Assembly (NCBI GenBank): GCA_019426215.1
Contig: CM033399.1
Span: forward strand, 25,181,022 to 25,245,021
Direction of reading: 5' to 3'
Source of the DNA: Buddleja alternifolia
Taxonomy: Eukaryota > Streptophyta > Magnoliopsida > Lamiales > Scrophulariaceae
DNA length: 64,000 nucleotides
The notes under the pieces are model-generated. The model was not told the origin of the DNA, did not search any database, and was given only the letters and a program-made list of their open reading frames with translations. Position 1 is the stretch's first letter. Every line of letters begins with the position of its first letter. This document shows, one piece after another, positions 42,080 to 63,256 of the stretch. The translations under genes and the position numbers were made by a program.

Positions 42080-43313
42080 CAACCTTTTTGTTTTCTAAGG
42101 AGACGTCTTTTACTAAAGAGTGGATCTTATTCTTAATATGATGATTAGTCTCTGTTAATGATAATTATTCCATAATTCCCGTATCATAACATAAGCATCA
42201 TTTGAAAAAAGTGTCTGATAATATGAATTTAACCTATCAACTCCCATCAATCGCCACTTAAATATATATAAACATGAAAGGTCTAGACATTTTTTAATCT
42301 TTTTTTTTTTTTGTTAAATAGGGCTAGACATGTTTGGTTCTAACGTAAACCTGCAAAGCCTGTGCTCATTTGGTTCTCACGGGCCAAACCAGGTTAGGCG
42401 GGTGGCCGACTAAGATGATCATCTAATGTTTGTTAACATTTAACTTTTCACATTTTGATTAAAACACTTCGCATCCCTTGTTAATAAGGCTAATGAATGA
42501 TTCTTTGTCCATTGTTTTACTTTTTCATCAGAATATTATCTATAATCAAATCAGAAAAAGTGTAAATAGTAAAAAAAAATGAGTTGTTGAATTTAAGAAC
42601 ATACTCTCCCCATCGTTTATCATAATGTGAACCCCAATATAGATTCCCTTCAAATTTCATACTTAACAAAACGAAAACAGCGAAAACAATCACCACAAAC
42701 GTTTCCCTCAGATCTTTAGTTCCCTTCCTTCCCACCATGAGGTACAAAAACAAAGGCAAATTCATCTACATGATCACTTAAAAGAGTTAATCCTAAAATA
42801 AACTACCCAACAAACTACTACGTTTGAAATGTTCAAACTTGGTTGTCCCAGAGGCAATATCTCTATCCAAACAGCGTATCGTCACATTCGCCAGGGCCAT
42901 TTCTTTTTCTTTGCTAGTTATCGCCAGGGCCATTTCTTCCACAACTTTTTGTTTCTTAGTGTCGAGGGCTTTCAGTTCTTCTTCTTGCTTCTTTAACTTG
43001 TTTCTCTGCTCATTTCTTTGAGCAATGAGTTCTATCACTCCCAATTTTGAGTTGATGGCCTCTTTGATTCTATTGAGCTGTCCACGGAACCATTTCACGT
43101 CTATCTTTAATCTTTCAGCGTCTTTAACTGCATCATAGAACTTCTCTAGAGAACCAGCATTAAATTCCTCAATTTTGAGCCTTTTCAGCTCCTTTAACAC
43201 ATTGCAGATGCCAGTGAGAACACCTTTTCTCATCACTTGAGACTTTAAATCACAATACTTGTCGATATTCCCATATTTGGCCTTGATGGACTCTATGGTA
43301 GGCTCTTCATCAA
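42080..43313. repeat. Segmental duplication block A (paralogous to 48,890-51,266)
   Basis: The two blocks align from CTTTTGTTTTCTAAGG-type sequence through CGCCACTTAAATATATATAA, TTGGTTCTAACGTAAACCTG and the coiled-coil exon. Block C carries two extra insertions. This shows that loci A and C arose by duplication of a multi-kilobase segment, not by retroposition. Confidence 0.8.
42793..43313 (-). pseudogene. Chimeric family locus A: coiled-coil exon only
   Basis: An open exon of 521 nt, acceptor at 43,314, phase 2 nt + 172 codons. It reads DEEPTIESIKAKYG, then VKWFRGQLNRIKEAI, then a long charged coiled coil (KLKKQEEELKAL), and ends LLGSLF. No first exon follows upstream: beyond the acceptor the sequence is the 3' flank of locus B. 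Without a start exon it is probably a gene fragment, although its frame is intact. The WxxxQLxxI layout resembles the C-terminal coiled-coil region of MATH-CC/PEARLI-4-type plant proteins. Confidence 0.6.
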
Positions 43314-43648
43314 CTGATAAATCGCAATATAAATAAGTTAGAAAAAGTGTAAATAATCAAAAAATGAGAAGTTGAATTTATGAACTATCTACTTTGTATT
43401 AGTGTAACAAAACTTTAACGCCCATGTACAACACCATAGAGTTTCATCGACCCTCCCAATCACTTATCATAACGTGCAACGCCGATATAGATTCCCTTCA
43501 AATTTCATACTTAACAAAACGAAAACAGCACAAACAATCACCACATACATTTCCCTCGGATCTTTAGTTCCCTTCCCTCCCATCATGAGGTACAAAACGA
43601 ACGCAAATTCATCTAATTAATCACTTTAAGAGTTAATCCTAAAATAAA

Positions 43649-44666
43649 TTACAGAAGGCCATCCAACAAGCTGTTACTTTTGAAAAGTTCAAATTTGGAT
43701 GTCCAAGAGGCAATATCTCTATCCAAACAACGCATCGTCACATTCGCCAGGGCCATTTCTTTTTCTTTGCTAGTTATCTTCAGGGCCATTTCTTCCATAA
43801 TTTTACGTTTCTCAGTGTTAAGGGCTTTCAGTTCTTCTTCTTGCTTCTTTAACTTGTTTCTCTGCACATCTCTTTCAGCAATGAGTCTTTTCGCTCCCAC
43901 TTTTGAGTCGATGGCCTCTTTGATTCTATCGAGCTGTGGACGCAACCATTTCATGTCTATCTTTATTTTTTCAGCATCTTTAACTGCGTCATAGTACTTC
44001 TCAAGAGAATCAACATGAAGTTGTTCGATTTTGAGCTTATGCAGCTCCTTTAACACACTGCAGATGCCAGTGAGATTCACTTTTCTCATCATTTCTGACT
44101 TTAAATCACAATCCTTGTCAATATCCCCGTATCTGGCCTTGATCAACTCTATGGTAGGCTCTTCTACATCTGAGAGAAATCAGAATATAAAAATAATGTG
44201 ATTAATTAATAGCAAAATGATTATATATGTTGTGTCTGTGTGGTTTCTTGAAGGAGGTCTTGTAGCAAGCAAATTTCCTTCTGAAAAGAGATTAAAATAT
44301 TCTTGTTCTTTTTTATTTTATTTTTACTTCTCGATCGGACCATTATGGGCTAACATTATTTTCTAAATTTTTTTGGTGAAACAAGGGGTCCGCTCACAAT
44401 TTGAAAGCATTATATATACGTTAATAATATACAAAAATTGTAACAAATGCATTCAGAAATTTTTTGAAAAAATTTGAACAAGACAAACTTACAAATAGGT
44501 TGAGGAGGAAGGGAGATGGAGTTGGATTGAGTGGGAGTCTGTTTCTCAGGTGACCTAATAATATTGGGTGGATTTGATGAGGGTTGGAACCAGGTGGCCG
44601 TGGTGGTGTGAGCAGTGCACCGCCATTTATCTCTTCTCTTTTTATGCTGTAAGAAGGTGACGTCAT
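43649..44666 (-). pseudogene. Chimeric family locus B: AHL-like first exon (frameshifted) plus coiled-coil exon
   Basis: Exon 1 (44,666-44,493) starts MTSPSYSIKREEINGGALL. Exon 2 (44,169-43,649) is intact: VEEPTIELIKARYGDIDKDC, then MKWLRPQLDRIKEAID, then a coiled coil, ending LLDGLL. A one-base deletion relative to locus C after the TPP segment shifts exon 1, so the donor (AACCTATTT|gtaag) ends in phase 0 while exon 2 needs one carried base. The correct frame after the shift reads NSISLPPQPI, as in C. The AT-hook segment is deleted. The intron is 323 nt. A truncated or non-coding product is likely. Confidence 0.65.
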
Positions 44667-44878
44667 CCCTCCGCGGTTCTTCAACTTCCCCCTCAAACAA
44701 AGGGAAAAGGGAGAGATGAATTTTGCCCAAGAAATGGCAAGTGGTGCGAGAGGGGAGGCAGAGAAGCTTCAATAAAGTGGGACAAATAAAATAACAGCTT
44801 CAGAAATCAATCCCCCCCACCCCCAAAAAAACAAAATTAACGCGTAAGGGTTTTAAATTTTGAAAGTTGTTAAAGGGC

Positions 44879-44925
44879 ACTCCAAAATGTTGTTATTGGC
44901 ACTCCATATTCCCTTTAATTTTTTC
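44879..44925. mobile_element. Fragment related to the 10.2 kb MITE
   Basis: Reads GGGCACTCCAAAATGTTGTT and then ATTGGCACTCCA, the same GGCACTCCAAAA terminal motif as the 123-bp MITE. Only a short piece is recognisable. Confidence 0.45.
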
Positions 44926-45094
44926 AAAAGGGCAAAACGATCCTTGATGTCAAAAAAAATAAATTAGTGCAAAACACATGCACTTGTACAATTAAAAATA
45001 CACATTGACTCCAAAATAAATAAAAATATTGAACCTTGATATTTTGTCCAAAAGAAATAGGAACAGAAAAACATAGAGCCCTTCAAAATTTTTT

Positions 45095-45379
45095 GGGAAA
45101 ATTGCATATAACCCCCTGTGTTATTACTTTTTTGCTGAAAACTCCCTTATGTTAATTTTTTTGCATGAAACCCCCTTGTGTCAGCCTAAACCCTGCACGA
45201 AACCCCCAATTCGTGTTAAACCCGCGGAAAGTAGCATACACGAGCAATGTATTTGATGTACGGTTGGGGGTTTCGTGCAGGGTTTAGGCTGACAAAAGGG
45301 GGTTTCGTGCAAAAAAATTAACATAAGGGAGTTTTCAGCAAAAAAGTGATAACACAGGGGGGTTATATGCAATTTTCCC
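45095..45379. mobile_element. Mutator-type MITE (GGGAAAATTGCA family) with perfect TSD
   Basis: The ends GGGAAAATTGCATATAACCC match in inverted orientation, and the arms pair over nearly the whole 285 bp (for example GTTTCGTGCAGGGTTTAGGC and its complement). AAATTTTTT is duplicated at 45,086-45,094 and 45,380-45,388. Confidence 0.9.
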
Positions 45380-45388
45380 AAATTTTTT

Positions 45389-45867
45389 AAAGAAATAGTT
45401 TTTCTTTTTTTCCCCCAACTTTATAAGATTATCTGCAATATTTTGGTTCTTGGTTTCTTTTGAAATTAAATCAACCGAAATTGTAGTTGTAACAAAAGAA
45501 AATTAAATTTTAGCAATGGACACGTGAAGTAATGAAAATAATTTAGAGGAGTTAGTGAAATATTAGAGCTTGCAAATGCTAAAAGCTTCGAGGAGATCTT
45601 AAAATATTTTCAAGTACTAATCAGCCCATTAGTAATACAATTGGTAATTTTGTTTCTTCATAGTTCTACAGTCCTTTTTATTTGTATTTTAAACATTGTT
45701 GACTCTAGAAACAAAAGTTAGGGATTTTGTTAAATATTTTGTTTGATGAATTATTTTTTTCTAGAATAGTTTACAATGTTAGTTTTTCTCAAAAATTAGT
45801 TGTTTTTTACAATTTTTTTTTACCATTTGTAATATTATATATGTGTTCATACGTGATTTATAGAGTC
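45389..45867. other. AT-rich spacer
   Basis: No gene or element ends recognised. Confidence 0.4.
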
Positions 45868-47190
45868 TGTTGATCTTTTTGGTCCTCACAATCAATCATA
45901 TTTTGACGATGACAATCTTTACCTATTTACCTTATTAAGTCTAATCTTTTCCTTGTGCAGATTTCCTCCCGAGATCAAAATATCCAGTCAGCAATATTAT
46001 CTTACAAGGGTCTCACTCTATCAGGGGCGGATCTACAGCCCCTTCAAGAGGGGGAGGGAGGGGGATTCGCCCCTCCTAAAAATCGAAAAATATCACATTT
46101 TCTCCCTTTACTTTGAGTTCGCCCCCCTAAAACTCAAAATCGTGGCTATAACAAAAGAGGTATAAGAGTATAAATTATGTCAAAAGTTGTAATTGAACCT
46201 AATTCCTTATTATATTTTTCCCCATAAATATAGCGTACCGTACCGCGGGGCCCCCCCTTAACATATTATGTAACTATATCACAACAATCTCGTCCCCCTC
46301 GATATAATCCCCAGTGCCCCCATTGAGCAAAATTTCTGGATCCGCCACTGCACTCTATATTATATTTCCTTTGTCTTCCCATGATTTGTTGTCTTCGTAT
46401 CTATTTAAAATGGCATATATATTTATCTCCTCGTTCCTATTCTCTCTTTGGTAAGGAGCCGTTTGTACATGTATCTTGGAAAGAGTCGTTCATGCCTTCC
46501 TTTTATCTATGAGGGTTGCATCTATTTAAAGAGAAGAAAAATGATCATCTAAAAGTGAAGAGAGAAATCTGAAGTTTTGTCTTGTCTTTTGGCATAGGTC
46601 CCTTCTCTGTTGTGTCTTCAGCAAGAAAGGAGTGACACCTATTCGTCTGAAGATTGAAGTGAAAAACACGAGTGATAAAAGAGGAGTTTGTGTTGAGTCT
46701 TTTGAATTCCAGTTTTTAAGTTGTATCGTGTGAATTAATCCTTTGATTTTCACATTTTCTCTTTGGGATTAGGCAGAGCAGCTCTCTCTAGTATTGAGTG
46801 TGTTTTTATGCTTAGTATTATTACAACCATTTAGTTCTGTTCATTTGTTGTGTTTTTCCTTTCAAGTTATGTGTTGGAAGTTTCACACATCAGTTTCAAT
46901 AAAATTTTCTTATTTCTCTTTAAGTTTTACATATTCCGTTGTGTACTCCAACAAAAATTTAAATACCCCCTCGTAGGCAATTCTTGATTTACATTTGGCA
47001 CCAGAGACAGATTACTCACTTCATAGGGTCTAACCACCCCAGTACAAAGATCCCCATGATGACCACAGTTGCCGACATGTATGCTGAGGCCCAATCTCAC
47101 TCTCGTCCTCCTCTATTCGATGGATTAAATTAAGCTGCCTGGAAGAACCGAACGCATGAATATGTAGTCTCGGTAGATTTTAAAATATGG
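45868..47190 (+). mobile_element. Copia 5' LTR, primer-binding site and gag start; rest lost
   Basis: The LTR reads TGTTGATCTTTTTGGTCC to TTCTTGATTTACA (45,868-46,993, including a nested hAT MITE). It is followed by TTTGGCACCAGAG, a copia-type primer-binding site. At 47,056 a gag-like frame begins (MMTTVADMYAEA, then RPPLFDGLN, a stop, then AAWKNRTHEYV). The pattern FDGxNxxxWK matches copia gag. Coding resemblance ends near 47,190 and no 3' LTR is seen. Confidence 0.75.
46022..46350. mobile_element. hAT MITE with perfect 8-bp TSD, inside the copia LTR
   Basis: The left end CAGGGGCGGATCTA and the complement of the right end, CAGTGGCGGATCCA, are hAT-style. CACTCTAT flanks both ends (46,014-46,021 and 46,351-46,358). 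The 329-bp interior is non-coding. Confidence 0.9.
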
Positions 47191-48889
47191 ACAGTTATCA
47201 TTTTAAAAATAATTTACAACTCTTTGCGGCTTGAGCTAAGAAATTAAATGAAGGGTTTCAATCGCGATTTGGTGGGGGGTTTCAACTTTTAGTAAGAATA
47301 CACAACAAACAAATGAAATTGTTTATTCAAGAATTCAAGATCTCAAAGCATTTTTAGCGTTCATTCATGGAGGTAATTGTTTTATATTTTTTATAAAATT
47401 TATTTCTATTATTCTTAAAACTATTCAATGATATAAAGAGTTTAATCGGTTATTAGTGTACAAGTTGCAACATAAAAATAGATTAAAGAGTAATTTTCTT
47501 TAATGAAGGAAGATGTCGATAGAAATTCTTTCTTGGAAGAGACTATGCGATTCTTATTAAGTTTTTATATTATGTCGTATTTACATTTCAAGGAATTCAA
47601 GTTCTATAGCTATGATCCTGTTATGAATTAGGCCTTTGAATTCAAAATATTTCTTAACGATTTATCTTTTATTGCAAGCTTGCAATCTATATTCAAGAGT
47701 GTAGTTTTTTTTATCTTATAATTAGTGTTTTGTATGCATTTCATTGAAGTAAAGAAAATTCTAATTTGAGCTGGCCCGAAATAAGCCCGAAGCTCGTAAA
47801 AATATGTGAGCCGAGTTTGAGCCGAGCCAACAAAAACTAATAGGAGCTGAGCTTGAGCCTATGGTTGATAGCGAGATATAAATTGATCTTGAACGAACTG
47901 AAGCTCGGCTCGTAAAACCCGATTGACAGGCCTACGATTTAGCCTCTTTATACTTACAATTACACTCTAAAAATGAGTGAACTCGTATTTTTTTTTGAGT
48001 TAGATGGTGAAAAGTCGCTTCTGGATGCAGATTGCCAAGTTATATGTAATTCGAGGGTGTAAAGTTCGAAAAAGTGACTTTAAGTATGTATTATGCCAAA
48101 AGATGACAATTCGAGGGTGCAATCCACCAATTACCAAAGAAAAAAGTGGGATCAAAGAACATTTTCAGCAATCAATTGAAACAACAATGGGACTATGGGA
48201 GCTACGTCTTGCGATTAGAGCATCAGAATCTATTTGGATTAGGACCCTCAATTAACTCAATTAGGCTCAAAGCTTGTAAGGCGTAGTTTGTATATTTGTA
48301 AACTGAGCCCAATAAAAGGGTTCGAATTCATAAACAAACCGAGCACAAACAGAGGTAAACTCGACTCAAATTAAGCTTGAATATATAAATATAAATAATA
48401 TATTATATTATATATATAAATAAAAAATAATACACTAATATATAAAATTACATAATATTATTCATTTTTTATAAAGTCTACCAAAAATGGAGTATAGAAA
48501 CTACTTTTTGGGGTTCAATTGAGAGGGTTACTTCCCTCCTTTTAAGTTTTAACTTGGTCAGTGGTAGTGTAGCTCCGCCACCACCGTGGTGAAGGACGAC
48601 TGAGGAGGTTGGAGAAGTGCATTTTTCACCTATGAGCGATAGATCTAACGAGGGTCCTCCATAGAGGCTAGAGCTGAGTTTAGACATTATGATTCTTCTA
48701 CATTTGAAGGGATGTGATCCGTTCAAAGATTGTTTCATGTTATTCGAGGTTGTAGGGTTATTGTTTCTAGATTGAGATTTTGTAGTCAAGTATCTCAGTT
48801 GTTATATATGGGGTTCAAAAATTGCAATATCGTGTTCGAGTGGCTCTATAGCATCCGAAACCTTATTTCTTGGCTTCTTCTAGTGATGT
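47191..48889. other. Unassigned repeats, no supported gene
   Basis: Contains GAGCCGAGC/GAAGCTCGGCTCG strings (47,770-47,920) and AATTCGAGGGTG twice (48,050, 48,108), which suggest old DNA-element remnants. A 103-residue ORF on the - strand (48,789-48,478) has no recognisable domain and is not called. Confidence 0.4.
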
Positions 48890-49095
48890 GCTTCAGCCTT
48901 TTCGTTTTCTAAGGTGATGTCTTTTACTAAACAGTGGATACTAATGATGATTAGTCTTTATTAATGATAATTATCCCATAATTCCCGTATCGTAAGCATC
49001 ATATAAGAAAAAGGAATCTGATAATCTGCATTTGACCTATCAACTCTAATTAATCGCCACTTAAATATATATAAACATGAAAAAGTCTAGGCATG

Positions 49096-49730
49096 TTTGT
49101 GACGGGGCGGAAGCTAGTAATTTTGAGAATTTAAAGGACACGTCTTAAAATATCGAATAACTCAAGAAAGTCTTGAAAGTAAAATAACTCAAAATCTTTA
49201 TTAATGATAAAATTGTATCTAACAAAGACAAATAACTGCAGCAACTATTTATAGGAAATAAAAGAAAGACTCCTAATTGAAATAAATTAGGATTCCTATT
49301 TCTACTTCTATTTTGACTCAAAAAAAAAAACACTAGAATTCCAATGGACTCGAAACACTACCAAATTTGTCCCAAAAATACTTCACCTTACGAGGTGACA
49401 CGTGTTAAAATTTGGGCCACATTCGACAACTAGATAATTTATTAAAAATAAAACAAAAACGCTGAAAATTGAAAAAAAAAACACTAAGCGGACCAAACGA
49501 AAGCCTAAACGATGGAATTTGGGGTCGATCTATTAGCCCTAAAACGGCCCTAGCCATTCAATCCGATTCCTCTCGAAAAGATCTTCGATTTGGTATTATT
49601 GTGGGCCCTGTAACTCCAAACAGATCAAAAATTATGACTGTTTGAAGTTTCGCCGACAACTTTTCGTTTGTTTTTCACTTTTCTTCCTTCGAACCTACCC
49701 AAAAACATGTCGTCTTCTTGTTCTACATCT
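49096..49730. mobile_element. Insertion of about 635 bp in block C, absent from block A
   Basis: Block A reads CTAGACATGTTTGGTTCTAA continuously. In block C the same junction is split by sequence starting TGTGACGGGGCGGAAGC. The ends and target duplication are not clear. A solo LTR is possible. Confidence 0.5.
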
Positions 49731-50233
49731 TGGTTCTAAAATAAACCTGCAAAATCTGTACTCATTTGGTTCTCATTGGCCTAACCAAGTTAGGCAAGTG
49801 GCCCACTAAGATGATCGATTGTCTAATGTTCGTTAAAATTGACATTTCACATGTTGATAAAAACACTCATCATCCTTTTTTAATAAGGCTAATGAATGAT
49901 TCTTTCTCCATTATGGTTCTTTCTCCATTGCTTTACTTTTTCATAAGAATATTATCCATAATCAAGTCAAAAAGAGTGTGTTCAATCAAAAATTGAGTTG
50001 TTGAATTTAAGAACAATGCTCTATATTAGTGCAATAAAATTTTGACTTAGGCTCGGACTTTTTGGCGTTCTTTCTTTGACATGTATACAACACTACAGAG
50101 TTCAACTGTTGAATTTAAGAACCATCTACTCTGTATTAGTGCAACAAAACTTTAACATCCATATACAACACTATAGAGTTTCATCAACCTTCCCGATCAT
50201 TTATCATAATTCATAACGTGAAACGCCAATATA

Positions 50234-50613
50234 GGCTATGTTTGGTTTTGTTTTCAAACCAACTTTGGCAAAAAAATTTGGCCAAAACTTGTTTGCTTCA
50301 TGTTTTTTTGATAAAAAATAATCTTTTTGGAAAAAAAAATTGTCAGCTATTGTCTCTACTTTAGGGTGCTTACTAATTACATCAACTACAATATAATCAT
50401 TTAAAACTTATATTATATTATATATTTCAATCATTAACTAATTATAAATACAACTTTTCAGACAAAAACTTACATGATTTGACTGCTACAGTCACTTTTG
50501 TTTCTTCTGAAAATAAAATTAAACACAAAACCAAACACATTTTCATAAAAATACACAACTTCCAATAAACATTTTCACCAAAACAAAGCCACGAAACAAA
50601 ACCAAACACAGCC
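50234..50613. mobile_element. PIF/Harbinger-like MITE with 3-bp TSD and visible empty sites
   Basis: The ends are GGCTATGTTTGGTTTTGTTT and GGCTGTGTTTGGTTTTGTTT, with ATA at 50,231-50,233 and 50,614-50,616. Loci A and B carry the unbroken target (AATATAGATTCCC near 42,638 and GATATAGATTCCC near 43,484). Confidence 0.9.
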
Positions 50614-50750
50614 ATAGATTCCCTTCAAATTTCATACTAAACAAAACGAGAAACAGCAAAAACAGTTGCTACAAACATTTCCCTCCTCCCACGACAATGT
50701 ACAAAAACGAATGCAAATTCATCTACATGATCATTTAAAAGAGTTAATCC

Positions 50751-51970
50751 TACAGAAGGCCATCCAACAAGCTATTATTACGTTTGAAATGTTCAAACTT
50801 GGTTGTTGTCACAGAGGCAATATCTCTATCCAAACAAAGTATGGTCGCATTAGCCAGGGTCATTTCTTTTTCTTTGCTAGTTATCTTCAGGGCCATTTCT
50901 TCCATAACTTTTTGTTTCTCAGTTTGATGGCTTTCAGTTCTTCTTCTTGCTTCTTAAACTTGTTTATCTGCTCCTCTCTTTGAGCAATGAGTCGTTTCGC
51001 TCCCACTTTCGAGTCGATGGCCTCTTTGATTCTATCGAGCTGTCCACGAAACCATTTCACGTCTATCTTTATTCTTTCAGCGTCTTTAACTGCATCATAC
51101 TACTTCTCTAGAGAACCTGCATTAAGTTCCTCTATTTTCAGCTCCATTAACACATTGCAGATGCCAGTGAGAACACCTTTTCTTATCACTTCAGACTTTA
51201 GATCACAATTCTTCTCAATATCCCCGTATTTGGCTCTGATCCACTCTATGCTAGGCTCTTCATCAACTGAGAAATTAAATCGCAATATAAATAATGTCGC
51301 TCGCGCGTTAACTAAGAAAAATAAAATTTTAAGAAATTATATTCTGCGGCTTGGTTACTTGAAGGAGATCTTGGTATCAACAATTTCCTTAATTGTGAAG
51401 AGAGATTAAAATAATGGCTGATAATTAATATTCTTTTTCTCTTTTCATTTTACTTCTCCGTCGGCGTCGGCTAATAATATTTTATTATTAATTTTCTAAG
51501 TTGTCCGTGAAATCTTTTTTATTAAAGTCTTTGGTGAATGAATAAGGGCTATATTTTTTCTTTTGATAATTATGAATAAGGGCTATATATAGGCTCACAT
51601 TTAGAATAAAGCATTTACATATTATTATATATAAGAAAAAGAAGCATTATATATACATATTCAATATATTGAGAAATTATTAGAAACAAATTTTTTTTTA
51701 AAAAAAAGACTTACAAATAGGTTTAGTGGGAGGAGGAGGAGGAAGGGAGATGGGGATGGATAGAGTGGGAGTGTGTTTGGCAGCGGCAGGGGGTCTACCC
51801 CTCTTCCGGGTGGTGGTTGGTGATGGTGATGGTGATGGGTTCTCAACTTTAATGTTGGGATTTGAATGAGAGCTAAAACCAGGTGGTGTGAGTGGTGCAC
51901 CCCCATTAATGTTCTGATCTTCTCCTTTTATGTTCCTTATTTTTTTGTTGATAGAAGGTGACCCCGTCAT
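50751..51970 (-). pseudogene. Chimeric family locus C: AT-hook exon in frame with coiled-coil exon, then stop and frameshift
   Basis: Exon 1 (51,970-51,715, 85 codons + 1 nt) starts MTGSPSINKKIRN. It contains SNPNIKVENPSPSPSP and a good AT-hook (TRKRGRPPAAAK), then a proline-rich tail. Exon 2 starts at 51,266 in the right phase (FDEEPSIEWIRAKYG). It then meets TAG at 51,102-51,100 where the paralogues have Tyr/Phe (SLEK-stop-YDAV), and further on lacks one base relative to locus B. The homologous exon end is near 50,751. An upstream ATG would add 35 residues but lacks paralogue support. It is a pseudogene in this haplotype, or encodes a truncated AT-hook peptide. Confidence 0.7.
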
Positions 51971-52589
51971 CCCTTCAGACAAACCCGGAGAAATGGAAAA
52001 ATGGTGTGGTAAGAGACAAGGAAGGAACAGAAGCTTCTGGAAAGAAAGAGTGTCAATATAAACAATTGGAAACATTAAGGAGGAGCTTTGTAAAATTCGA
52101 GCATCAGCATTTAATGGGGTTTAAAATGGGTTTATTGAGGGGGTGTTGTCGGTACTGCCCATTGTCACGTCTATCCAAGATATGATTATTTACCCTGTTT
52201 TTTCTATTTGAATTCACCCTAATTAAATTATATTCAATTAATTTGTAAGTAGAGGTTAGCTTGATTCGATCCTCTCAATTCAAATAAGTTCGACAGCACA
52301 ACTTTTTTGTTTTTTTTCAAAAGAGATTGTTTGGCTATGCTTATTCAAAATATCTTATAAACTCTTACATTTTATAAGATGTTTTAGGAACTTATAAGAT
52401 GTAACATTTTATAAGATATTTTAAAAAAAATTGGGGTGAGTTACTTTTTTAAAAACAGTTTATAAGACTCAAACTTTTTATTTTTTTATCTTATAAGCTA
52501 TTTTTTTTTAAAAAAAAATACCAAACAAATTTATAAAGTTTATAAGCTCTAAAACATTTTATAAGATGTTTAGAGGAGCTTATAGCTTA

Positions 52590-54216
52590 GGGTGAGTTTG
52601 GCCCAACTGTTGTATAATTGATTATAGAGGAATTGATTATGGTATAATTGATTTTGAGATAATTGATTTTACAAAATTGATTATGCGTTTGGATTCCACT
52701 TTTCAAAATTGACTGTGAAATTTTACTCAACAATGAAATTGTCAAAACTATCTTCATTTATCTGCAAAGAACCATCAATAATATTATAGTGAATATGGGT
52801 ATAATGGGTAATTAAGGGATGAGTAATTGCGTTAGGCCAAAAGCTTCGGCTATGTTTGGTTATGTTTTGGAGTTGTATTTTGGTGAGAATTATTGGAGAG
52901 AAATTTTTTGGGACACGTGTATAATTGGTGAGATAATGTTTGGTTTTGTTTTGAAAGTTGATTTTTAGGTGGTTTTTTTGGTAAGATAGTGTTTGGTTTT
53001 GTTTTCAAAGGGAACAAAAATTACTGTAGCAGTCAAATCACTAAAATTTTTGTCTGTTAATGATTAAAAATTATAATATAATATTGAGATTGTAATAATT
53101 ATTATATAGATGAATATAAATAATAGTGGTTGATATATATATATATGTTTTATTATATTTAGAACATATATATATATATATATATATATTTAAAATAACT
53201 TATTACTAGTCACAAGAGACAGATAAATACATATAATATATACATATATATATATATATACACACATATTAAATGAGAACAATTGTGAACTTCCTTTGCC
53301 TTCTTAAAGGCTTCACACAAACAACACACACAACATTAATAAAGCCTTGACACACGCACGAGCCCCACAGACATCAATACAACACACACAAATAAGATAT
53401 CCATAAAAAATTGTAAGAAACCCATCGCGAAAACAAGCATTTCACAGTGTTAGCACAGCCACGGCACCCTCAGCGCCACCGTCTGTAGCTGGCGGCTTCC
53501 GAAACGCAAGTGGAGGCGGTAAAGCTAATCAAATCCACAATTTACTAATTATAAAAAAAAATTTTAATAAAAGGTCGTAATAAAATTTGTAAAAAAAAAT
53601 TGTAAAAATCGCAAGACCCAGAAGGGATAAAGGTTTTAGAGTTTGAAATTCAACAAAGTATTATGTAATAGTTTTATTTTTCATGAGAAAATGTAAGAAT
53701 GGTGGGTTATTGCAGAGAGTGGGGACTTGGAGAATTTTGATTGGGGGTAAAAAGTAGCAGAGAATGGGGCGTAGGTGAATGGCCAACTTCACCACAACTT
53801 TCACATAAAAATGGCTCCATTACCTTGACAGAGCAGAGAATAAATCACAGGCAAAGAAAGAGATGAGGGGTGGAGAGAGAGAGTGTTACACGAAGAGAGA
53901 AAAAAGAGGGGGACAAAATACTGTTGTTGCATTGATTAGCAGGAGAGAGAAAGAAAAAGGGGCCAAAACGATTTTTGGTCCAATATTTTGGCCCAAAATC
54001 ATGGTATCCAAACACTATTTGGTCAGAAATTTGGGCCAAAATGAGTCCAAAACATAACCAAACATTGCCTTCAATTTGGAGCTTTTACCCAACTGCTGAT
54101 TTCCACCGTGAAAAGCCCAAAATTAATTATCATGAAATGGGCCAAACACACATAAGAATTGCTTTTTCCTCCCAAACGTGATTATTGGCGGTTGAAAAGC
54201 TGGGCCAAACGGGGCC
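52590..54216. mobile_element. Second-level nested element, TTTGGCCCA ends
   Basis: The ends GGGTGAGTTTGGCCCAAC and GGCCCCGTTTGGCCCAGC are inverted repeats. TTA is duplicated at 52,587-52,589 and 54,217-54,219. It is itself interrupted at 52,848. Confidence 0.75.
52848..54069. mobile_element. Third-level nested element, GGCTATGTTTGG ends
   Basis: The ends GGCTATGTTTGGTTATGTTT and GGCAATGTTTGGTTATGTTT are the same family as the 50,234 MITE. TTC is duplicated at 52,845-52,847 and 54,070-54,072. The body is 1222 bp, non-coding, with (TA)n tracts at 53,140-53,265. Confidence 0.8.
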
Positions 54217-54299
54217 TTAGTCAAATACTCTCTAATTAAAGAGGAAGGGGATACCCTATATATCTAAACCGATAAATTCGAATTGATAGATATAATCTT

Positions 54300-54425
54300 G
54301 AGCCATAAAGACTCTATGTAGCTCCATAAAAAAGGGTAGAACCACACAACTTGTGGCAGTCTGAATTCGAATCCAAGACCTCTCACATAAAGTGGGAGGT
54401 GGATACCATTAGACCAACTTTAAAT
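54300..54425 (-). mobile_element. tRNA-derived SINE-like fragment
   Basis: On the - strand a tRNA-like stretch has an A-box-like TTGGTCTAATGGTATCC and a B-box-like GGATTCGAATTC with the usual spacing, followed by unrelated sequence. It lacks a convincing cloverleaf, so it is not called as a tRNA gene. Confidence 0.5.
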
Positions 54426-54549
54426 AGCTCATGCAAACAATATTATTATAGTATATCTAGATTATTATTTTTGGCTGGCTTTTACGAAGTGGGTAACAGT
54501 TTTCTCTTTATTTAGGCTTACAATCGATGATTTCACATATAGTTTTGCA

Positions 54550-56080
54550 AATTATTTATTTTTTTAGGACATTTTTTTTAGCATAACACACACTTATATA
54601 CATATCAAAATAAAGTACACGATTTTGTACAGAGGTGGCCTGACTGTGAAAGCTTATATACATAACAGATTCTATCACTATCTACAAGATTTTGCAAAAA
54701 ACTGGGGGCAGTGGGAGAAGTAGTACGCTCTATCGGTATGTGTGGCGTTGGTCTTCGCTAGGTAGTCAGCCACTATATTTACTTTCCAGTAGCAAAATTT
54801 TAGCTGGAGGTGCTGGAGTTTAATCCACGCCTACTGACAGTTCTGTGAAAGGGTCGCCATGGCTGGTTCCCACGCAATCCTGCAAGACAGACAATTGAAT
54901 AATATAGTAGAGTCAGTCTCAATGATCATGTTATCAACATGCATGTTCACAGCTAATTTAATGCCCACATAGGCAGCCCATATTTCCGCAATATTGTTTG
55001 TAGTAATGCCTATATTCATCGAGAAACCTGCCAGAACTTCACCACAGTGATCCCTGATGACCCCTCCAACTCCAGCCCAACCCGGGTTACCTAGGGAAGA
55101 TCTGTCAATGTTTAATTTATACCAAGCTGGCGGTGGGGCAGTTTATTTGAGCTGAAAAGCCATGGGTCGAGGAAGGTGCAGGTAGGGGGTGATATTGAGC
55201 AAGGTTTTTGAGGGTATTGTGATAGGTAATCTAATTATTTATCGGTGCATTTTGAAACACGGCTTGGTTGCGTGCTTTCCAGATGTTCCAACAGGAATAA
55301 AGGAGGATTAGCTTTTGTTTGAGCGGACTTCCAGTAGCTTTAAGTGTAAGAAGAAGGTGAGTATCTGGAAAAACCGTGTGGGTATCATAGGCGAGTTTGC
55401 GGTAAAGCGGTGTCAAAATGGGGCATTCCGAAAAGAGACGAGTTATGGTATCTTCGGCTGTTTTACATAAAGGACAGAGCGGATATGATAGACGATGACA
55501 ATTGTAAAGATGTGACGCAGTGGGGAGGCGTTCATGCGCGAGCAGCCATGCAAAGAAAAGGTTTTTAGATCGTATTCAAAAATTTGAGGTGCCAGATAAA
55601 TACGAGGCCACATGCATATTCCACACTTCGGCAACTATTTGGTTATATGACTTATATCGAGCCCATGCATTTTCAAAGCGAAGGGTTTGTGAATAAGGGG
55701 TCCGGGTCGAGTGCTATCAAACAGGATTGGGGTATGGTCCGAAGAAATCATAGAGAGGTGAGTAAGGGATGAGTGGGGAAAATTTTGGAGCCAAGAGGGA
55801 TTTCACTAACACTCGGCCAAGCCGGGCACAAATAAGCTTATCCTTAAGATGGAATTGTCTATTTGTCCAGGTGAAAGGATGGACGACATATTCAATATCA
55901 ATCAAGTTACACGCGTCAACACAGGCTCGAAACTTATTAATTTTATAGTATTGGTCCTACTACCTACTTTTTTTGACATGGATAATAAATTATTGAAATC
56001 ACTAATAATCAACCAATTAGAAGAAACATGCACAACGAAAGATATAAGTTGTTGCCATACCTCATGTTGGCGGGAAGTTT
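54550..56080 (-). pseudogene. LINE (L1-like) remnant, internally deleted
   Basis: On the - strand, in order: the endonuclease region (WLIISDFNNLLSMSKKVG and then PFTWTN, about 56,080-55,720); after a gap, the zinc-binding zf-RVT region (LLAHERLPTASHLY, CPLCKTAEDTITRLF, 55,560-55,230); then an RNase H-like domain (NNIAEIWAAYVGIKLAV, IIETDS) ending KVNIVADYLAK near 54,700. The reverse transcriptase that should lie between endonuclease and zf-RVT is missing. Several frame breaks are present. An A-rich tail is plausible at about 54,551-54,583. Confidence 0.85.
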
Positions 56081-57296
56081 TCAATTGATCTAGGAGTTGT
56101 TTTTGTGCTTGGATTTTTGTCCATGAGAATATCATTATCACTAGAGTTCTCCAGGTCTCCTAACAGGATGCTAGGAGCATCACACCTTACAGATCCTAGT
56201 TCATCACTTTCATATGCAAGCTGAACATAGTCAGCATCTGAGGAATCATCATACTCTGATCTGGAATCTATTTCATCATCCCTGAAAGCATCACTCACCT
56301 TCTTTTTCCCCTTGTCTATACTTAACTCTCCCACTTTTCCTTTTCCCTTGTCTGTACTTGCCTCTGCCGTTTTTCCTTTGCCTTTGTCTGCCGCTGTTTT
56401 TTTTTGCCCTTGTCTGCACTTGCCTCTGCCATTTTTTTTTTCTTTGTCTGCCACTGTTTTTTTGCCCTTTTTTGTGCCTGCCTCAGTCACTTTTGTCTTT
56501 CTCTTTCCTCTAACCTCCCTAGCAGCACCAGACCTTTTTCTTTCCTTTTTGTGGTCTAACATCACTCACCTTTCCTTTCCCTTTTTTTTTGCAGTGGAAG
56601 GGTTAGTTTTCACATGTTCTTGGTCATTGTAGTAATCAAAATCATCCACACACCTCTCACCCCCATAGTAATACCACCCATTTGTGTCATATAACCCACC
56701 CTCTCCATAATATGCCCCCAGCCCCAGCTCTTCATTAGTATTAATTCCACTCTGCCTCAAATTAGCCTCTGACTGCACTATTTCCTCCACTGATTTCTCC
56801 TGCACATTGGTCTCCTCTGGATGATCACCAGTGTCAGGATCCTGCCCATTAGTCTCCACTATTTTCTTTTGCATATTAGTCTCATCTGACTGCTCATTAT
56901 TTACTATATCTAAGGCCCTGTCTCCATGAAATCTTGAGTTGCATTCTCTCCATATGTATCATTGAAATCAATCCCAGACATTAACATTCTCATTTCTCTC
57001 TCTTCTGGTTCTTCTGGAGCATTGATAATTGCTTCTATAGGAGCAACAATGTCTTCAGAATATAATACAACTTTGCATTCTAAACCTTTATAAGCAGCTG
57101 TCATTTCACCAATTGACATATCAGGCAGGTGTCTGTTAATTTGTCTCAATCCTAGTTCCAGTGTGACTCCAGATCTCTTGAAATATAAGTCCACAATTCC
57201 ACATTCTCCTCCACTTATAGCATGCATCTCAGAAATATCATCCAAGTTGAACGTGTCTAAATCAACATCTTCACACATTCTTTTTCCTTCCCTCAT
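56062..57296 (-). pseudogene. Mutator-like transposase, N-terminal part only
   Basis: It starts at the ATG at 57,296. After about 128 codons the frame changes; it reads on at 56,874, with a stop at 56,568, and then as a Lys/Gly-rich tract and an acidic segment (DSRSEYDDSSDADYVQLAYE) typical of the N-terminal linker of plant MuDR-type transposases. It breaks at about 56,070, where the LINE starts. The catalytic core is absent. Its upstream end carries the GGGATAATTGCA terminus at 58,173. Confidence 0.65.
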
Positions 57297-58173
57297 ACAC
57301 TAATCTTGAACCTTTTTCAACAAATTTTCCACTTATCCACATCTTTACATCATGATAATTATCATCCATCTGTAAAATAGTATAAAATAAATAATCAAAA
57401 TATATATAATATTATTAAACCATAATTAAAATACTATCTTTTTCTGTCATGTAGTTTATAAATGAACCATAAACAAAGACAAGTGCGGGACCATATTCTC
57501 ATAAATTATACATTGGGATTATAGCTGGAATTCAATGTTCAATTTGGGTCCACATTTGACACAATTCACAGATCTTTTGGTTGGTATTCCGGTCTACAAC
57601 AGCTGAATTTCATATTTTTGGGACCACTTTGGTTGGTATCTAAGGAGCACATAGAATATATGTCCATGGAACAACAAAAGAAATAGATTCCCATTCACAA
57701 TGTAGGCCACAAACAAATATATAACAAGAAGCATTCAGCGTGACAATGTTCCCTAAACCCTAAGCATTGAAAAAAAATACAATAACAATCGACAATTTCA
57801 AAAAACAAACGAACATAACCAACATACAAAAAAATAACAGGATACGCCCATAAGTTAAAGAAAAATACAACGATTCCTGCACTGAATATCGGATTGCGCA
57901 CTCATTTTTATCCAAGACGATCGGTTGATTCTGAAGATTCAGCAGGCTAGGGTTTGGGGTGAGAGAAAATGGCGATGTGTGTTGGGTGTGGGTTCTGAAA
58001 ATTACAATGCAGTAATGGTAATTTCCTTACTTTATATACAAGGGTATTTTGGTCAGCACACATAAATTTCAAGTGAAAAAATAAGTAGGGAGGCAGTGTG
58101 CTTTATTAAAATTTACTCAGGGAGTTAAATTGACCTTTTTTGTTTCACGGGTTATTTTTTTTGCAATTATCCC
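57297..58173 (-). mobile_element. 5' end of the truncated MULE, terminal GGGATAATTGCA
   Basis: Non-coding leader ending at 58,173. There the - strand begins GGGATAATTGCAAAAAAAAT, the same terminus as the MITEs at 19,254 and 45,095. The other end of this element was not found. Confidence 0.55.
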
Positions 58174-58302
58174 TATCCCTTTGAAAATATCATAATCTTG
58201 CTGCTAATCATATTTGCAAAACTAAACAAAAACGACAACAGCGGCTACAACTATTAAGGGTAGCACAACATTTCACTTGAAAATAAATTTATCGTACGAC
58301 CA

Positions 58303-58545
58303 GGGACAGAGTCAGGATTTGAAATTTTGGGGGAACGAATGAAAAAATTCGAGGCAAAACTTAATATTTTTAAATTTTGGAGGGGCGAAATGTCAAATAT
58401 TAAAAAATTTTAAGGGGGCAAAATATCAAAAATTTGTAAGGCAAAATATCAAAAATTTGTAAGGCAATTTTTTTTTTTTTAAAGTTTTGGGGGGGGGGGG
58501 TGCCCCTAGATATCCGGGGCCTCACTCCGTCTATGCATAAGACTG
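58303..58545. mobile_element. Possible hAT-type MITE, decayed
   Basis: The left end CAGGGACAGAGTCAGGATTT and the complement of the right side, AGACGGAGTGAGGCCCC, resemble hAT-derived CAGGGGCGGAGCCAGG repeats. A G-run lies at 58,491-58,500. No clear target duplication. Confidence 0.45.
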
Positions 58546-58671
58546 TATAAAAATCATGTATATAAGCCTTGGATCATAATCCATTTCCCCCAAACCTCGT
58601 AATAAATTATAAAAATTGACAAGTAGGAGTAAAATGACCTTCACTTCATATACAATTCACTAAGCTCGAGA

Positions 58672-61195
58672 GGGGTTTTTTATTAGATTAATATTGAAAA
58701 AAAAATTCAAAATAATATAATTAAAAAATCATTATTTTTTAATATAAAACGCCATTTGATATGTCGTCTTCACCTGATTTTTTTTTTTAAATAATTTTTT
58801 TTTAAAATGTCGTCTTCAATTAAATTTTTTTTTTAATTTTTGAACAATGAATGATTGGTCGTCTTTACTGTTCACTTTTTTTTTAAAATTTCCCGGCCGT
58901 GGAAGATGCAATTTCCCTGCTGTCAATTTAATTTTTTTTTAATTTATGAACAGTGAAGACGACATTGAAAATGTCGTCTTCACTGTTCACTTTTTTTTTT
59001 AAGTTGTGTGTATATATATACATATATATATTAATTAATTAAGTCATGTTTTTTTCTTTATTTTCCGCTCATTTTTCTCCTTTTTTTGTGCATTTTTGAG
59101 TTTCGACTTGAATAAATAAATTGTAGACTTCATATAGAGTTTGTAACCACACAAGAATGGACTCATTTTGATACCCGAGTGAAGAAATATGACAAGTAAA
59201 AAAGGACACATTAGAACAATTTTTTAAAGAAAACAATAACTTTGTCTATGTTTCCGACTCATTTTTCTCCCTTTTTCGTTCATTTTTGAGTTTTGACTTG
59301 AACACATAAATTGTAGATTTTCATATAGACTTTGTAACTACACAAGAATGGACTCATTTCAATATTTGAGTGAAGGAATATGACAAAGTAAAAAATGACA
59401 CACATATACGAATTTCTCGGGAAAAAAATATTTTTTCGTCATTTTCGGGATGATTTTTCGACATTTTTTGTACATTTTCAGGCTTCGACTTCAACACAAA
59501 AAATGTAGATTGACTCACAAAGTTTGTAACGGTATGAGAATTGATTCATTTCGATATCCGAGTGAAAAAAATACAATATGTTAAAAAGGACACACATATA
59601 CAGATTTTTTGGAAAAAAATATTTTCTCGTCATCTTCAAGATGATTTTTCGACCTTTTTTGTACATTTTCAGGTTTAGACTTCAACACAAAAAATGTAAA
59701 TTAACTCACAAAGTTTGTAACGGTGTAAGAATTGATTCATTTCAATATCTTGGTGAAAATATACAATAAGTTAAAAAAGACATATATATACGGATTTTTC
59801 AAAAAAAAATTATTTTTTCGTCATTTCGGGATGATTTTTCGACCTTTTTGTACATTTTCAGGCTTTGACTTCAACACAAAAAATGTAGATTGACTCACAA
59901 AGTTTGTAACGGTATAAAAATTGATTCATTTTGATATCCGAGTGAAAAAATACAACATGTTAAAAAAGACGCACATATACGGGTTTTTCAAAAAAAAATT
60001 ATTTTTTCGTCATCTTCGGGATGATTGTTTGACATTTCTGCACATTTTCGAGTTTCGACTTCAACACAAAAAATGTATATTGACTCACAAAGTTTGTAAC
60101 GGTGCAAGAATTGATTCATTTCGATATTCGGGTGAAAAAATACATTAAGTTTAATAAAGACATTTTTAAACATGTATTTTTAAATCTGGATATCGAAATA
60201 AATCAATTCTTGCACCGTTACAAACTTTGTGAGTCAATCTACATTTTTTGTGTTGAATTTGAAGCCCGAAAATGTATTGAAAATGTCAAAAAATCATCAC
60301 GAAGATGACGAAAAAATATTTTTATTCCAAAAAATCCGTATATATATGTCTTTTTTAACATATTGTATATTTTCACCCGAATATCGAAATGAATCAGTTC
60401 TTACACCGTTACAAACTTTTTGAGTCAATCTACATTTTTTGTGTTGAAGTCGAAGCCTGAAAATGTACAAAAAAGGTCGAAAAATCATCCCGAAAATGAC
60501 GAAAAAATATTTTTTTCCGAAAAATCCGTATATGTGTGTCCTTTTTTACTTGTCATATTCCTTCACTCAGGTATTGAAATTAGTCCATTCTTGTGTGGTT
60601 ACAAAGTTTATATGAAAATTTACAATTTATGTGTTCAAGTCAAAACTCAAAAATGAACGAAAAAGGGAGAAAAATGAGTCGGAAACATAGACAAAGTTAT
60701 TGTTTTCTTTAAAAAATTGCTCTATTGTGTCCTTTTTTACTTGTCATATTTCTTCATTCGGGTATCGAAATGAGTCTTATGTGGTTACAAAGTCTATATG
60801 AAAGGCTACAACTTATATGTTCAAATCGAAACTAAAAAATGCACGAAAAAAAAAAAGCAAACAGTTTCAATGTCGTCTTCACTGTTCATAAATTAAAAAA
60901 AAAATTAAATTGACAATAGGGAGATTGCATCTTCCACGGCCGGAAAATTTAAAAAAAAAGTGAATTCAATATCGTCTTCACTGTTTATAAATTAAAACAT
61001 AAAATTAATTGAAGACAACTTTAAAAAAAAAAAAAAAAATTAATGTCGTCTTGTAATTTTCATTTAAAAAAAAAATTCAAGTGAAGACGACATATCAAAT
61101 GGCGTTTTATATTAAAAAAATAATGATTTATTAATTATATTATTTTGAGATTTTTTATTTAATTTTATATTAATATTAATCTAATAAAAAACCCC
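58672..61195. mobile_element. Foldback element of 2.5 kb made of tandem units of about 190 bp in inverted arms
   Basis: The termini GGGGTTTTTTATTAGATTAA are inverted at both ends. The outer arms share ATAAAACGCCATTTGATATG, TGTCGTCTTCACTGTTCA and CACGGCCGG. Inside, six tandem units of about 190 bp in the left arm (from about 59,050; TGACTCACAA at 59,511, 59,891 and 60,081, variant TAACTCACAA at 59,702) face about four in the right arm in opposite orientation, centre near 60,170. A near-perfect palindrome of about 43 bp lies at 58,947-58,990. No transposase. The short ORFs repeated through the arms follow the DNA repeats and are not genes. The target duplication is ambiguous. Confidence 0.88.
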
Positions 61196-61355
61196 AAGAG
61201 AGTGGAAAATTAATTTTCATTTTTGTTTTCACATTGACAATATGCTCAAACAACTGAAGCTTTTACCATTAACGGGAACAAAAATGATTTACTAATTTAG
61301 CATTTACAACTCCCAGGAAAACCAAACGCAAATTCATTTACATTAAACTTACGAA

Positions 61356-63256
61356 TTATCTAAATAAATTGAAAAAGGCCAAAGATTTGAATTTTGCAAA
61401 GTCGTATGTCCGAGAGGAAATATCTTTATCCAAACTCTGTATCTTTGCAGTTGTGAGGACCATTTCTTTCTCCAAGTTTTGTTTTCTGATGTTAAGGGTT
61501 TTCAGTTCTTCTTCTTGCTCCTTCAACTTGTTTTTCTGCACATCTCTTTCAGCAATGAGTCCTTTCGCTCCGACTTTTGAGTTGATGGCCTCTTTGATTT
61601 TATCGAGCTGTGGACGCAACCATTTCACGTCTATCTTTATTTTTTCAGCGTCTTTAACTGCCTCATAGTACTTCTCGAGAGAATCAACATTAAGTTCTTC
61701 GATCTTGAGCTTATGCAGCTCCTTTAACACATTGCAGATGCCAGAGACAACCACTTTTCTCATCACTTCAGACTTTAAATCACAATCCTTCTCAATATCC
61801 CCGTATTTGGCCTTGATCGACTCTATGGTAGGCTCTAAATCTGCGAAATCAGAATATAATCATGTTATTAACTATAAAAAATGTAAAGAAATTATTCTGC
61901 TGTCTCGGTAGCTTCTTGAAGGAGATCTTGTTGCAAATTCTATTCTGAAGAGAGAATTAAGTGCATATAATATTTTATTTTTTTCTTTCTAATTTTTGGT
62001 GAACAAGGGCTCTGCTCACATTCAGAAAGCAAAATGTTCCATAGTTATGCTATCATCAAGCATCTACACTCTTTTGAGTAGACCATGTTGGTGTTACCCA
62101 ACTATTAGTCTCTTAATCTCTCAATTTTGCGAAAAAGTAAAGGAAAAAAGTGGGAGAATTGCAGTTTTCGTCCCTCAACTAACCATTAAAACATATTTGG
62201 TCCATCATTTTTCAAATTCACATATTTAGTCCCTCAACTTGTCAATTTCAAAAACATTGGGTCCTCGCCGTCAAATTTCCTTCTAAAACTAATGGAATGG
62301 CCAAAAGTACGATCCAAAATTATGTTTTGTTAGGTCCTTTGTTCGATGAATCTGTGACTGAAGCTGTGACCTTCAAATTGAATAGGTAAATGGTGATTTG
62401 CGAGCCCAAAGCATTTAATTCGAAAATCCCCAACTTTTTATAAATCCTAATCACCATTTTTTCCCATGAAGTTATTGGTGCAAATGGACAAAATTTTGTA
62501 GGAAGTGCAAATTCAGATCTCATATGCCAAAATCGACAAATTTTCCTAGAATTCAACCCATGTGCCTCACGCATGACTCTTTTCGTTAACTTTTTGAGGG
62601 AAAGTTGACGGCAAAAAGTGATTATGTTTAAATTGAACAACATTAGGGACTAAATGTATAATTTGAGAAATGGGGGACCAAGTCTATTTTAGTGGTGAAG
62701 TTCATGGCTGAAAATTGTAATTCTCCCCGGAAAAAAGTCCAAAATTCCCTATTTATCTAATTTTTCAACTTTCACCTACTTCCAATTTCTCTCTCCAATT
62801 CTAACATCCATCCTTTTTCATATATCCAGTACTTGAGTTATTTATTCATATCTAAACAAAAAAAAAAGAAATTATTTACTTCATTAACGAAATTCCAAAT
62901 AAAACATATTAGAACGAATAATAATGATAATCACATTTAAATAATTTAAAATAAAATTTATACACACGAACCAGTGTGGCGCAGACGCTACTTAACATTT
63001 GAGTTTTTATAAAAATTAAAAAAAAAGAAAAAGAAAAGCTTACAAAAAGGTTGGGAGCAATGCGGAAGACCTTGGATCCAGTGGCACTGTGTTTCCCGGG
63101 CGGCCTAGCCCTCTTCCGAGACGGATCCTCAACCGCCGGCGGAATAACTGGTGGTGGTGTCAGTAGTGCAGCCCCACCGCCACCGTCACCACCGCCGTTC
63201 TCTTCTCTCTTTATCTTGTAAGATGGTGAAGAAGCCATCCCTCCTATTTCATCCAT
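61356..63256 (-). CDS. Chimeric family locus D: AHL-like first exon plus coiled-coil exon (splicing unresolved)
   Basis: Exon 1 (63,256-63,044) reads MDEIGGMASSPSYKIKREEN, then a Gly/Pro-rich stretch, a decayed AT-hook (SRKRARPPGKHS, where the usual G-R-P core reads A-R-P), ending APNLF. Exon 2 (61,840-61,356) is fully open: LEPTIESIKAKYGDIEKDC, VKWLRPQLDKIKEAIN, KEQEEELKTLN, ending FFNLFR. The obvious donor (CTTTTT|gtaagc) is phase 0 while exon 2 needs one carried base, so direct joining would give an early stop. Another donor or a small exon in the 1.2 kb intron is needed, or it is a pseudogene. The 5' leader resembles that of the AHL gene. The intron contains a MITE (62,152). Predicted nuclear, function unknown. 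Confidence 0.55.
62152..62728. mobile_element. Mutator-type MITE in the intron of locus D
   Basis: The ends GGGAGAATTGCAGTTTTC and GGGGAGAATTACAATTTTC are inverted, with TTTAGTCCCT in both arms. GGAAAAAAGT lies outside both ends (62,142-62,151 and 62,729-62,738). Length about 576 bp, non-coding. Confidence 0.88.

Follow-up and report, generated by a model that had tools for sequence, protein, structure and literature searches.

A probable AHL/PEARLI-4 chimeric gene family in Buddleja alternifolia, shaped by local exon shuffling and decay

Tandem duplications can shuffle exons, as the chimeric genes of Drosophila yakuba illustrate (PMC5460883), and AHL genes of clade B reportedly contain introns whose phases are conserved within the clade (PMC8458767). 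Here we describe a set of loci on chromosome 10 of Buddleja alternifolia in which an exon for a PEARLI-4 domain (PF05278) recurs, in several copies behind sequence related to the 5' end of an AHL gene. The window, by which we mean the whole 64,000-nt stretch analysed (C10:25181022-25245021), holds an AHL gene of this species, BUALT_Bualt10G0047000 (P0002, 100% identical over residues 1-154), and four of the loci, A to D; two more, E and F, lie outside it. Contig labels C5 and C10 agree with the chromosome numbers in the BUALT gene names, and the remaining contig numbers are as given. We think it probable that these loci form a Buddleja family of AHL/PEARLI-4 chimeras built by local exon shuffling, with a history of duplication, spread, past constraint and decay.

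The resemblance to AHL genes (AHL5/9-like, clade B) lies in the leader and start at D and E, in the SNPNI and VENPSP stretch at C, in a hook or hook-like motif at C, D and E, and in a phase-1 intron after exon 1. Since searches of the chimeric loci found no PPC domain and a canonical hook occurs in one copy only, they are not themselves AHLs. PEARLI-4 proteins are matched by exon 2, with scores past the curated cut-off at all five loci from A to E; they differ in that C, D and E have an AHL-derived exon as their N-terminus and that A, B and D are close to neutral. As in the Drosophila yakuba chimeras (PMC5460883), parts of genes appear to have been joined by local duplication, but here in a plant, with several decayed copies and with the gene order retained on a second chromosome. 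MATH-CC proteins differ in that the Buddleja loci have no MATH match, and the loci are not members of that group. In the open-access literature searched, nothing on the pairing of an AT-hook with PEARLI-4 appeared beyond a single co-mention, each term once, and no AHL chimeras more generally were evident in the titles and abstract openings listed.

The features on which the comparison rests are these.

17798..18263, minus strand: AHL exon 1 (BUALT_Bualt10G0047000), 466 nt, ending in phase 1 before GTAAGT; the source-type sequence for the chimeric exon 1.
18264..18700, minus strand: putative AHL 5' leader, upstream of the start codon; matched by the locus D leader.
15754..17319, minus strand: AHL downstream exons, which code the PPC domain; counterpart not found at the chimeric loci.
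63257..63410, minus strand: locus D leader, with AHL-like blocks TCTCAAGATTCAACC, AAACCCTTGTT and TTTCCAGT.
63044..63256, minus strand: locus D exon 1, MDEIGGM...VEDPSRKRARPPGK...APNLF, 213 nt, ending in phase 0; plain splicing breaks the frame with exon 2.
62780..62831, minus strand: locus D 52-nt mini-exon, as read from the annotated protein BUALT_Bualt10G0047200.
61356..61840, minus strand: locus D exon 2, PEARLI-4 domain, open, phase 1 acceptor.
51715..51970, minus strand: locus C exon 1, MTGSP...TPPGFSSHSNPNIKVENPSP...RKRGRPP, 256 nt, phase 1; the sole canonical AT-hook core among the copies.
50751..51266, minus strand: locus C exon 2, PEARLI-4, continuing the frame of exon 1; in-frame TAG at 51100-51102 and a later 1-nt deletion.
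44493..44666, minus strand: locus B exon 1, 174 nt, phase 0; without an AT-hook, frame shifted relative to C.
43649..44169, minus strand: locus B exon 2, PEARLI-4, open, phase 1 acceptor.
42793..43313, minus strand: locus A exon 2, PEARLI-4, open.

The initial annotation had described four minus-strand two-exon loci with a MATH/PEARLI-4-like second exon. Four minus-strand exons (A, B, C and D) do carry the PEARLI-4 domain, with Pfam scores of 63.2 bits for B, 58.7 for D and 51.0 for A against a cut-off of 29.9, and an exon with a GTAAGT or GTAAGC donor lies upstream of it in B, C and D; at locus A no exon 1 was seen, with locus B exon 2 ending about 335 nt upstream, and the MATH label lacks support, as the Pfam results for the scanned exons and P0001 hold no MATH match. 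The PEARLI-4 exon is predicted to fold mostly as helix: the model of B exon 2 (mean pLDDT 74.8, pTM 0.37, built from three sequences only) has four helices, the longest of 99 residues, and is dominated by that single long helix. Against composition, the heptad pattern stands out only weakly, the observed value being reached in 5 of 300 shuffles for A, 25 of 300 for B and 19 of 300 for D, and a PDB search returned three matches with E values of 0.19-0.25. That none of the loci has a PPC domain, as first proposed, agrees with a tblastn search using both AHL PPC regions, which found no PPC/DUF296 domain in 42001-64000 while recovering the window's AHL as a control; at locus E (L013) it gave a single weak match (E 0.86, 29% over 38 residues) on the strand opposite to the gene.

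Evidence for descent of the leader and first exon from an AHL comes from DNA. Here a colinear alignment with long gaps allowed between blocks was combined with shuffles and a check for the best place outside the family. Against the window's AHL, the leader plus exon 1 of D scored 46.1 and exon 1 of C 40.6; neither score was reached in 1000 shuffles or, in a repeat test, in 2000, and the AHL was in both cases the best place outside the family. These matches of D and C exceed chance. The chromosome-5 AHL paralogue (C5:9921767), unseen when the match was first measured, gave a second target among 574 windows of a 90-kb stretch. With gap settings of -8/-0.1, D (87.9), the D leader alone (71.2), E (70.0), C exon 1 (44.4), E exon 1 (41.9) and D exon 1 (34.2) each scored above all 1000 shuffles and found this AHL the best of the 574 windows; with -12/-0.03, the same held for D (51.5), E (37.1) and C exon 1 (35.3), whilst D exon 1 was reached in 3 of 1000 shuffles and was best, and E exon 1 in 1 of 1000 and was not best. 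Across 162 gap-free leader columns, AHL5 (the chromosome-5 gene) agrees with AHL10 (that of the window) in 108, with D in 105 and with E in 101; AHL10 agrees with D in 97 and with E in 92, and D with E in 116. The D leader is thus about as distant from AHL5 as AHL5 is from AHL10.

Other forms of the test were less decisive. Exon 1 of D alone was reached by 9 of 1000 shuffles against the window's AHL, which was not its best place. Short-gap local alignment against the same gene was weaker than the chained form, with 2 of 500 shuffles reaching the D leader in both settings and, in the two settings, 0 and 4 of 500 reaching D exon 1, 2 and 0 reaching C exon 1, and 16 and 21 reaching B exon 1. Exon 1 of B, C, D and E combined was reached once in 2000 shuffles with the AHL as best window, D and E combined in 15 of 2000 and not best, and leader plus exon 1 of all four in 22 of 2000 and not best; the leader of B was at chance level (438 of 500 shuffles).

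At the protein level the agreement narrows to single loci. The initial annotation had credited B, C and D alike with an MD...GM start, NPNI, VENPSP and an AT-hook, in the order of the AHL. Among the copies, NPNI and VENPSP are confined to locus C, which is also the only one with a canonical AT-hook; D has VEDPS in place of VENPSP; the MD...GM start is present in D and E and in neither C nor B; and the hook core reads RKRGRPP in C and RKRARPP in D and E, with no hook in B. That motif list does not survive, therefore, and of the proposed ordered match, exon 1 of C and the leader plus exon 1 of D stand, while B does not rise beyond chance. The shared DNA words are real (C and the AHL have GTTGAGAACCCATC and CCCAACATT in common, and the D and AHL leaders CTCAAGATTCAACC, the other-strand form of the word first reported), and the match between the D and AHL leaders holds. 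When scored on a profile of AHL N-termini (117 of 120 rows used, 20000 shuffles), exon 1 of C reached 10.9 bits, a value attained by no shuffle; exon 1 of D (1671/20000), B (1115/20000) and E (346/20000) failed. The Pfam AT_hook model gave no score for exon 1 of C, D, E or B, and two real AHLs also score below its cut-off. An hhalign comparison aligned 21 columns only, at the start, with a probability of 75.7. From these comparisons of sequence, common descent with the AHL is indicated for D, for E and for exon 1 of C, and not for B or for the leaders of B and C.

Splice phases are consistent with the same history. AHL exon 1 (next exon phase 1), C exon 1 and E exon 1 (238 nt) all end in phase 1, and the PEARLI-4 exons of A to E and of chromosome 5 have phase 1 acceptors. 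At C, the frame continues from exon 1 into exon 2 and stays open for 55 codons, the junction codon included, before the TAG. In B and D, with exon 1 in phase 0, plain splicing brings a stop within two codons. A search with locus D as query retrieved the annotated Buddleja alternifolia protein BUALT_Bualt10G0047200 (P0001), whose mini-exon restores the frame; the exact words of this mini-exon occur nowhere else in the window, and it is probably a gene-prediction repair. An alternative GAG acceptor, which follows a better CAG at a distance of 8 nt in D and 11 nt in B, would likewise rescue the frame in these two loci; we judge both rescues unlikely. Exon 2 of E has one extra G within a G run; in F, exon 1 contains a stop and exon 2 has lost a large internal piece. 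Under a plain reading, 0 of the 6 chromosome-10 loci thus encode an intact fusion. The initial annotation mentions neither the frame lesions of B, C and D nor the missing exon 1 of A, nor the copies beyond the window. Within the long first intron of D, we see by eye an apparent inserted element with short terminal inverted repeats (62156-62716), which may account for the length of this intron relative to those of B and C.

Copies of the family are spread along chromosome 10, where six loci were found, five with exon 1, plus one fragment; fragments also lie on C7 and C19. Locus E is at C10:25356.3-25358.5 kb (L010, L013), its exon 1 sharing 78% DNA identity with that of D, and F is at C10:25335.0-25341.0 kb. 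There are 12 PEARLI-4 matches in the genome, of which five are A to E, each of these above the curated cut-off (A-D, L006, L003, L009, L004; E, L010). A genome search with D exon 2 gave at least 16 matches, comprising A to E, F (two pieces), C19 (two pieces), C7 (one piece), a piece just beyond the window (C10:25246848) and more distant loci on C5, C6, C11 and C1 (two), whereas C exon 1 found itself and otherwise only matches at E 0.2 or weaker. In the exon 2 tree, A pairs with C (support 93) and is joined by B (68), and E pairs with the C19 copy (91) and is joined by D (100). Protein searches for the fusion in other species gave only BUALT_Bualt10G0047200 (1014 candidates; best 7993 by shared words), a search blind to lengths outside about 128-436 aa and to relatives without common 5-residue words. 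Just downstream of D lies a 2.5-kb element of nested inverted repeats (58676-61197). In a partial copy outside the window (L017:1445-1908) both of its flanks match and the element itself is absent, so it was probably inserted after that duplication. Sequence similar to this element adjoins the chromosome-5 PEARLI-4 exon.

The relation of the two parent types is retained on chromosome 5, where a PEARLI-4 exon (C5:9874217) lies 47 kb upstream of the AHL paralogue (C5:9921767), both on the plus strand, in the same order and relative strand as on chromosome 10. We put the chance of such linkage at about 4 in 10000, a rough estimate from seven loci elsewhere, 50 kb and 854 Mb. Beyond the two genes, the 90-kb stretch matches the window only in segments that by eye resemble mobile elements and in short hits at about 24.2-24.9, 34.3-35.4 and 38.0-38.6 kb of the window. 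A 40-nt match to C exon 1 (80%, E 0.001) occurs at C5:9858372, on the other strand than the chromosome-5 PEARLI-4 locus. Contig C6 carries the strongest PEARLI-4 match together with an AHL-like exon, 221 kb apart on the same strand (C6:43252707, C6:43474230); this pair may be an older relic of that linkage.

Because AHL intron 1 and the PEARLI-4 acceptors are all phase 1 and the linkage recurs on two chromosomes, we infer a tandem duplication with breakpoints in introns. In the ancestral state, a PEARLI-4 gene would have stood upstream of an AHL gene, both on one strand. A duplication with one end in the phase-1 intron that precedes the PEARLI-4 exon and the other in the phase-1 first intron of the AHL would then have set a duplicate AHL leader and exon 1 ahead of a duplicate PEARLI-4 exon, keeping the frame and leaving both parents whole. 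The chimera would next have been copied along chromosome 10, with fragments reaching C7 and C19; it would have been coding and constrained for part of its history, with past expression from an AHL-type promoter and perhaps a nuclear location and DNA binding, and its copies are now decaying in a birth-and-death process. The origin first proposed, an AHL leader and first exon placed before a PEARLI-4 exon by local duplication, is upheld for D, C and E, also against the chromosome-5 paralogue; B joins them only via its likeness to C and D.

Substitution patterns suggest that constraint has differed between branches. Between D and E, exon 1 (first 183 nt of D, 222 nt of E) has a dN/dS of 0.28 (Fisher p 0.008-0.023 by rounding), a value that shows purifying selection between these two copies, and exon 2 past the lesion of E has 0.55 (p 0.05-0.10); the D/E exon-1 gaps preceding the D lesion are all multiples of three. 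Among A, B and D, exon 2 shows no departure from neutrality (p 0.20, 1.0 and 1.0 for A/B, A/D and B/D), and these substitutions look neutral, although the gaps among the three are also multiples of three and all three exons stayed stop-free in only 99-131 of 20000 neutral runs, depending on the choice of root, in a test that is generous in that three intact copies were chosen from four. We read this as past constraint, apparently stronger on the D/E branch, followed by relaxation.

Several results weigh against a common AHL origin followed by constraint. The search for an AHL-like exon ahead of the PEARLI-4 exon on chromosome 5 found none. As a target, the AHL of that chromosome is not entirely independent, since it shares 70% identity with the window's AHL across exon 1 and its start; margins were narrow in the stricter setting (37.1 for E and 35.3 for C, against 35.0 for the next window in each case); and a GGT-rich repeat accounts for some of the exon-1 score of D and E. 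Against the window's AHL, E found no match (81/2000) and B exon 1 was reached in 13 of 1000 shuffles (72/2000 on repeat) without the AHL being its best place; against the chromosome-5 AHL, B exon 1 scored 28.5 (10/1000 at -8/-0.1, 609/1000 at -12/-0.03) and was not in its best window, and the E leader alone scored 38.6 (59/1000, tied elsewhere, at -8/-0.1; 16/1000, not best, at -12/-0.03). The C leader is at chance level against the AHL leader (274 of 500 shuffles). A C/D/E exon-1 profile does not single out AHLs, real ones having a median of -1.8, shuffles -1.4 and the window's AHL -3.8. Finally, exon 2 has dN/dS values of 0.70 (A/B), 0.98 (A/D) and 0.98 (B/D), and differences by codon position are nearly flat (29, 29 and 29 for A/D).

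Some of these results would fit an AHL likeness that is low-complexity chance, arising from Ser/Pro/Gly and hook-like residues, with exon 1 simply the original beginning of a PEARLI-4 gene: the protein-profile tests fail for D, B and E, E and B fail against the window's AHL, and the GGT repeat supplies part of the exon-1 score. We hold this to be very improbable, and largely contradicted, as D, E and C all align best at the chromosome-5 AHL in both gap settings with no shuffle reaching them, and the D leader by itself scores 71.2, against 87.9 for D as a whole, again with no shuffle reaching it. It is also improbable that a Pack-MULE or Helitron-type mobile element picked up the 5' end of the AHL and brought it to the PEARLI-4 exon. 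Mobile-element-like sequence is common in the region and the inverted-repeat element lies beside D, but a local event is simpler, given the same gene order and strand on two chromosomes. Instead, the two exons might be debris that splicing never joined, a piece of the AHL 5' end and a piece of a PEARLI-4 exon duplicated next to each other, as the lack of any intact copy and the existence of exon-2-only copies (A, C19 and the C7 fragment) could suggest. Retained donors and acceptors in B, C, D and E, the matched phase 1 in C and E, and the in-frame gaps and low dN/dS of D/E exon 1 make this quite unlikely.

The reverse possibility, that one or more copies make a working protein now, with a hook or hook-like N-terminus, a PEARLI-4 helix, AHL-pattern expression, and AT-rich binding or competition with AHLs, we regard as doubtful. 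It would account for the constraint on D/E exon 1 and for the annotation of D as a protein, the weak downstream GAG acceptor would let B and D read through, and the single-base lesions seen in D and E fall within or next to short runs of T and G, sites prone to assembly error. Against it stand the early stops of B and D by plain splicing, the TAG and deletion of C, the insertion in E, the lesions of F, the RARP hook core of D and E, and the near-neutral exon 2 of A, B and D. AT-hook function requires an RGRP core; as this core is found only in C, and C is broken, a DNA-binding dimer is possible for the ancestor and unproven for the present copies. The AT-rich-DNA-binding, dimerising product of the initial annotation is accordingly not borne out, the other copies being out of frame, without a hook core or without exon 1, and the heptad signal being weak. 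That E or D at least yields a lineage-specific AHL/PEARLI-4 protein from an AHL-type promoter, acting as a PPC-less chromatin factor or AHL competitor, is unlikely. We thus retain a chimeric family formed by local exon shuffling, once constrained and now in decay, as the probable reading.

By eye, 29960-32563 (minus strand) holds broken retrotransposon reading frames, which we take to be copia-type; a 676-aa open frame at 3795-5825 likewise resembles a MULE-type transposase, and an open frame at 2130-2750 containing WLDDEVVNFYLMLL resembles a Ulp1-type protease.

Chimeric genes are often found once their parents and breakpoints have blurred. Here, an AHL of the parent type lies in the window, a paralogue lies beside an apparently unfused PEARLI-4 exon on another chromosome, and the copies stand at several stages of decay. 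Together, the parent type, the apparently unfused pair and the decay series open both the proposed route (tandem duplication between phase-matched introns) and the fate (constraint followed by loss) to testing. If an AHL/PEARLI-4 chromatin factor did exist, it would be a new regulator made from two neighbours via a single duplication, with the apparently unfused pair persisting on a second chromosome. With no clean read-through in any copy found, the array stands as a preserved case of plants trying new gene combinations.

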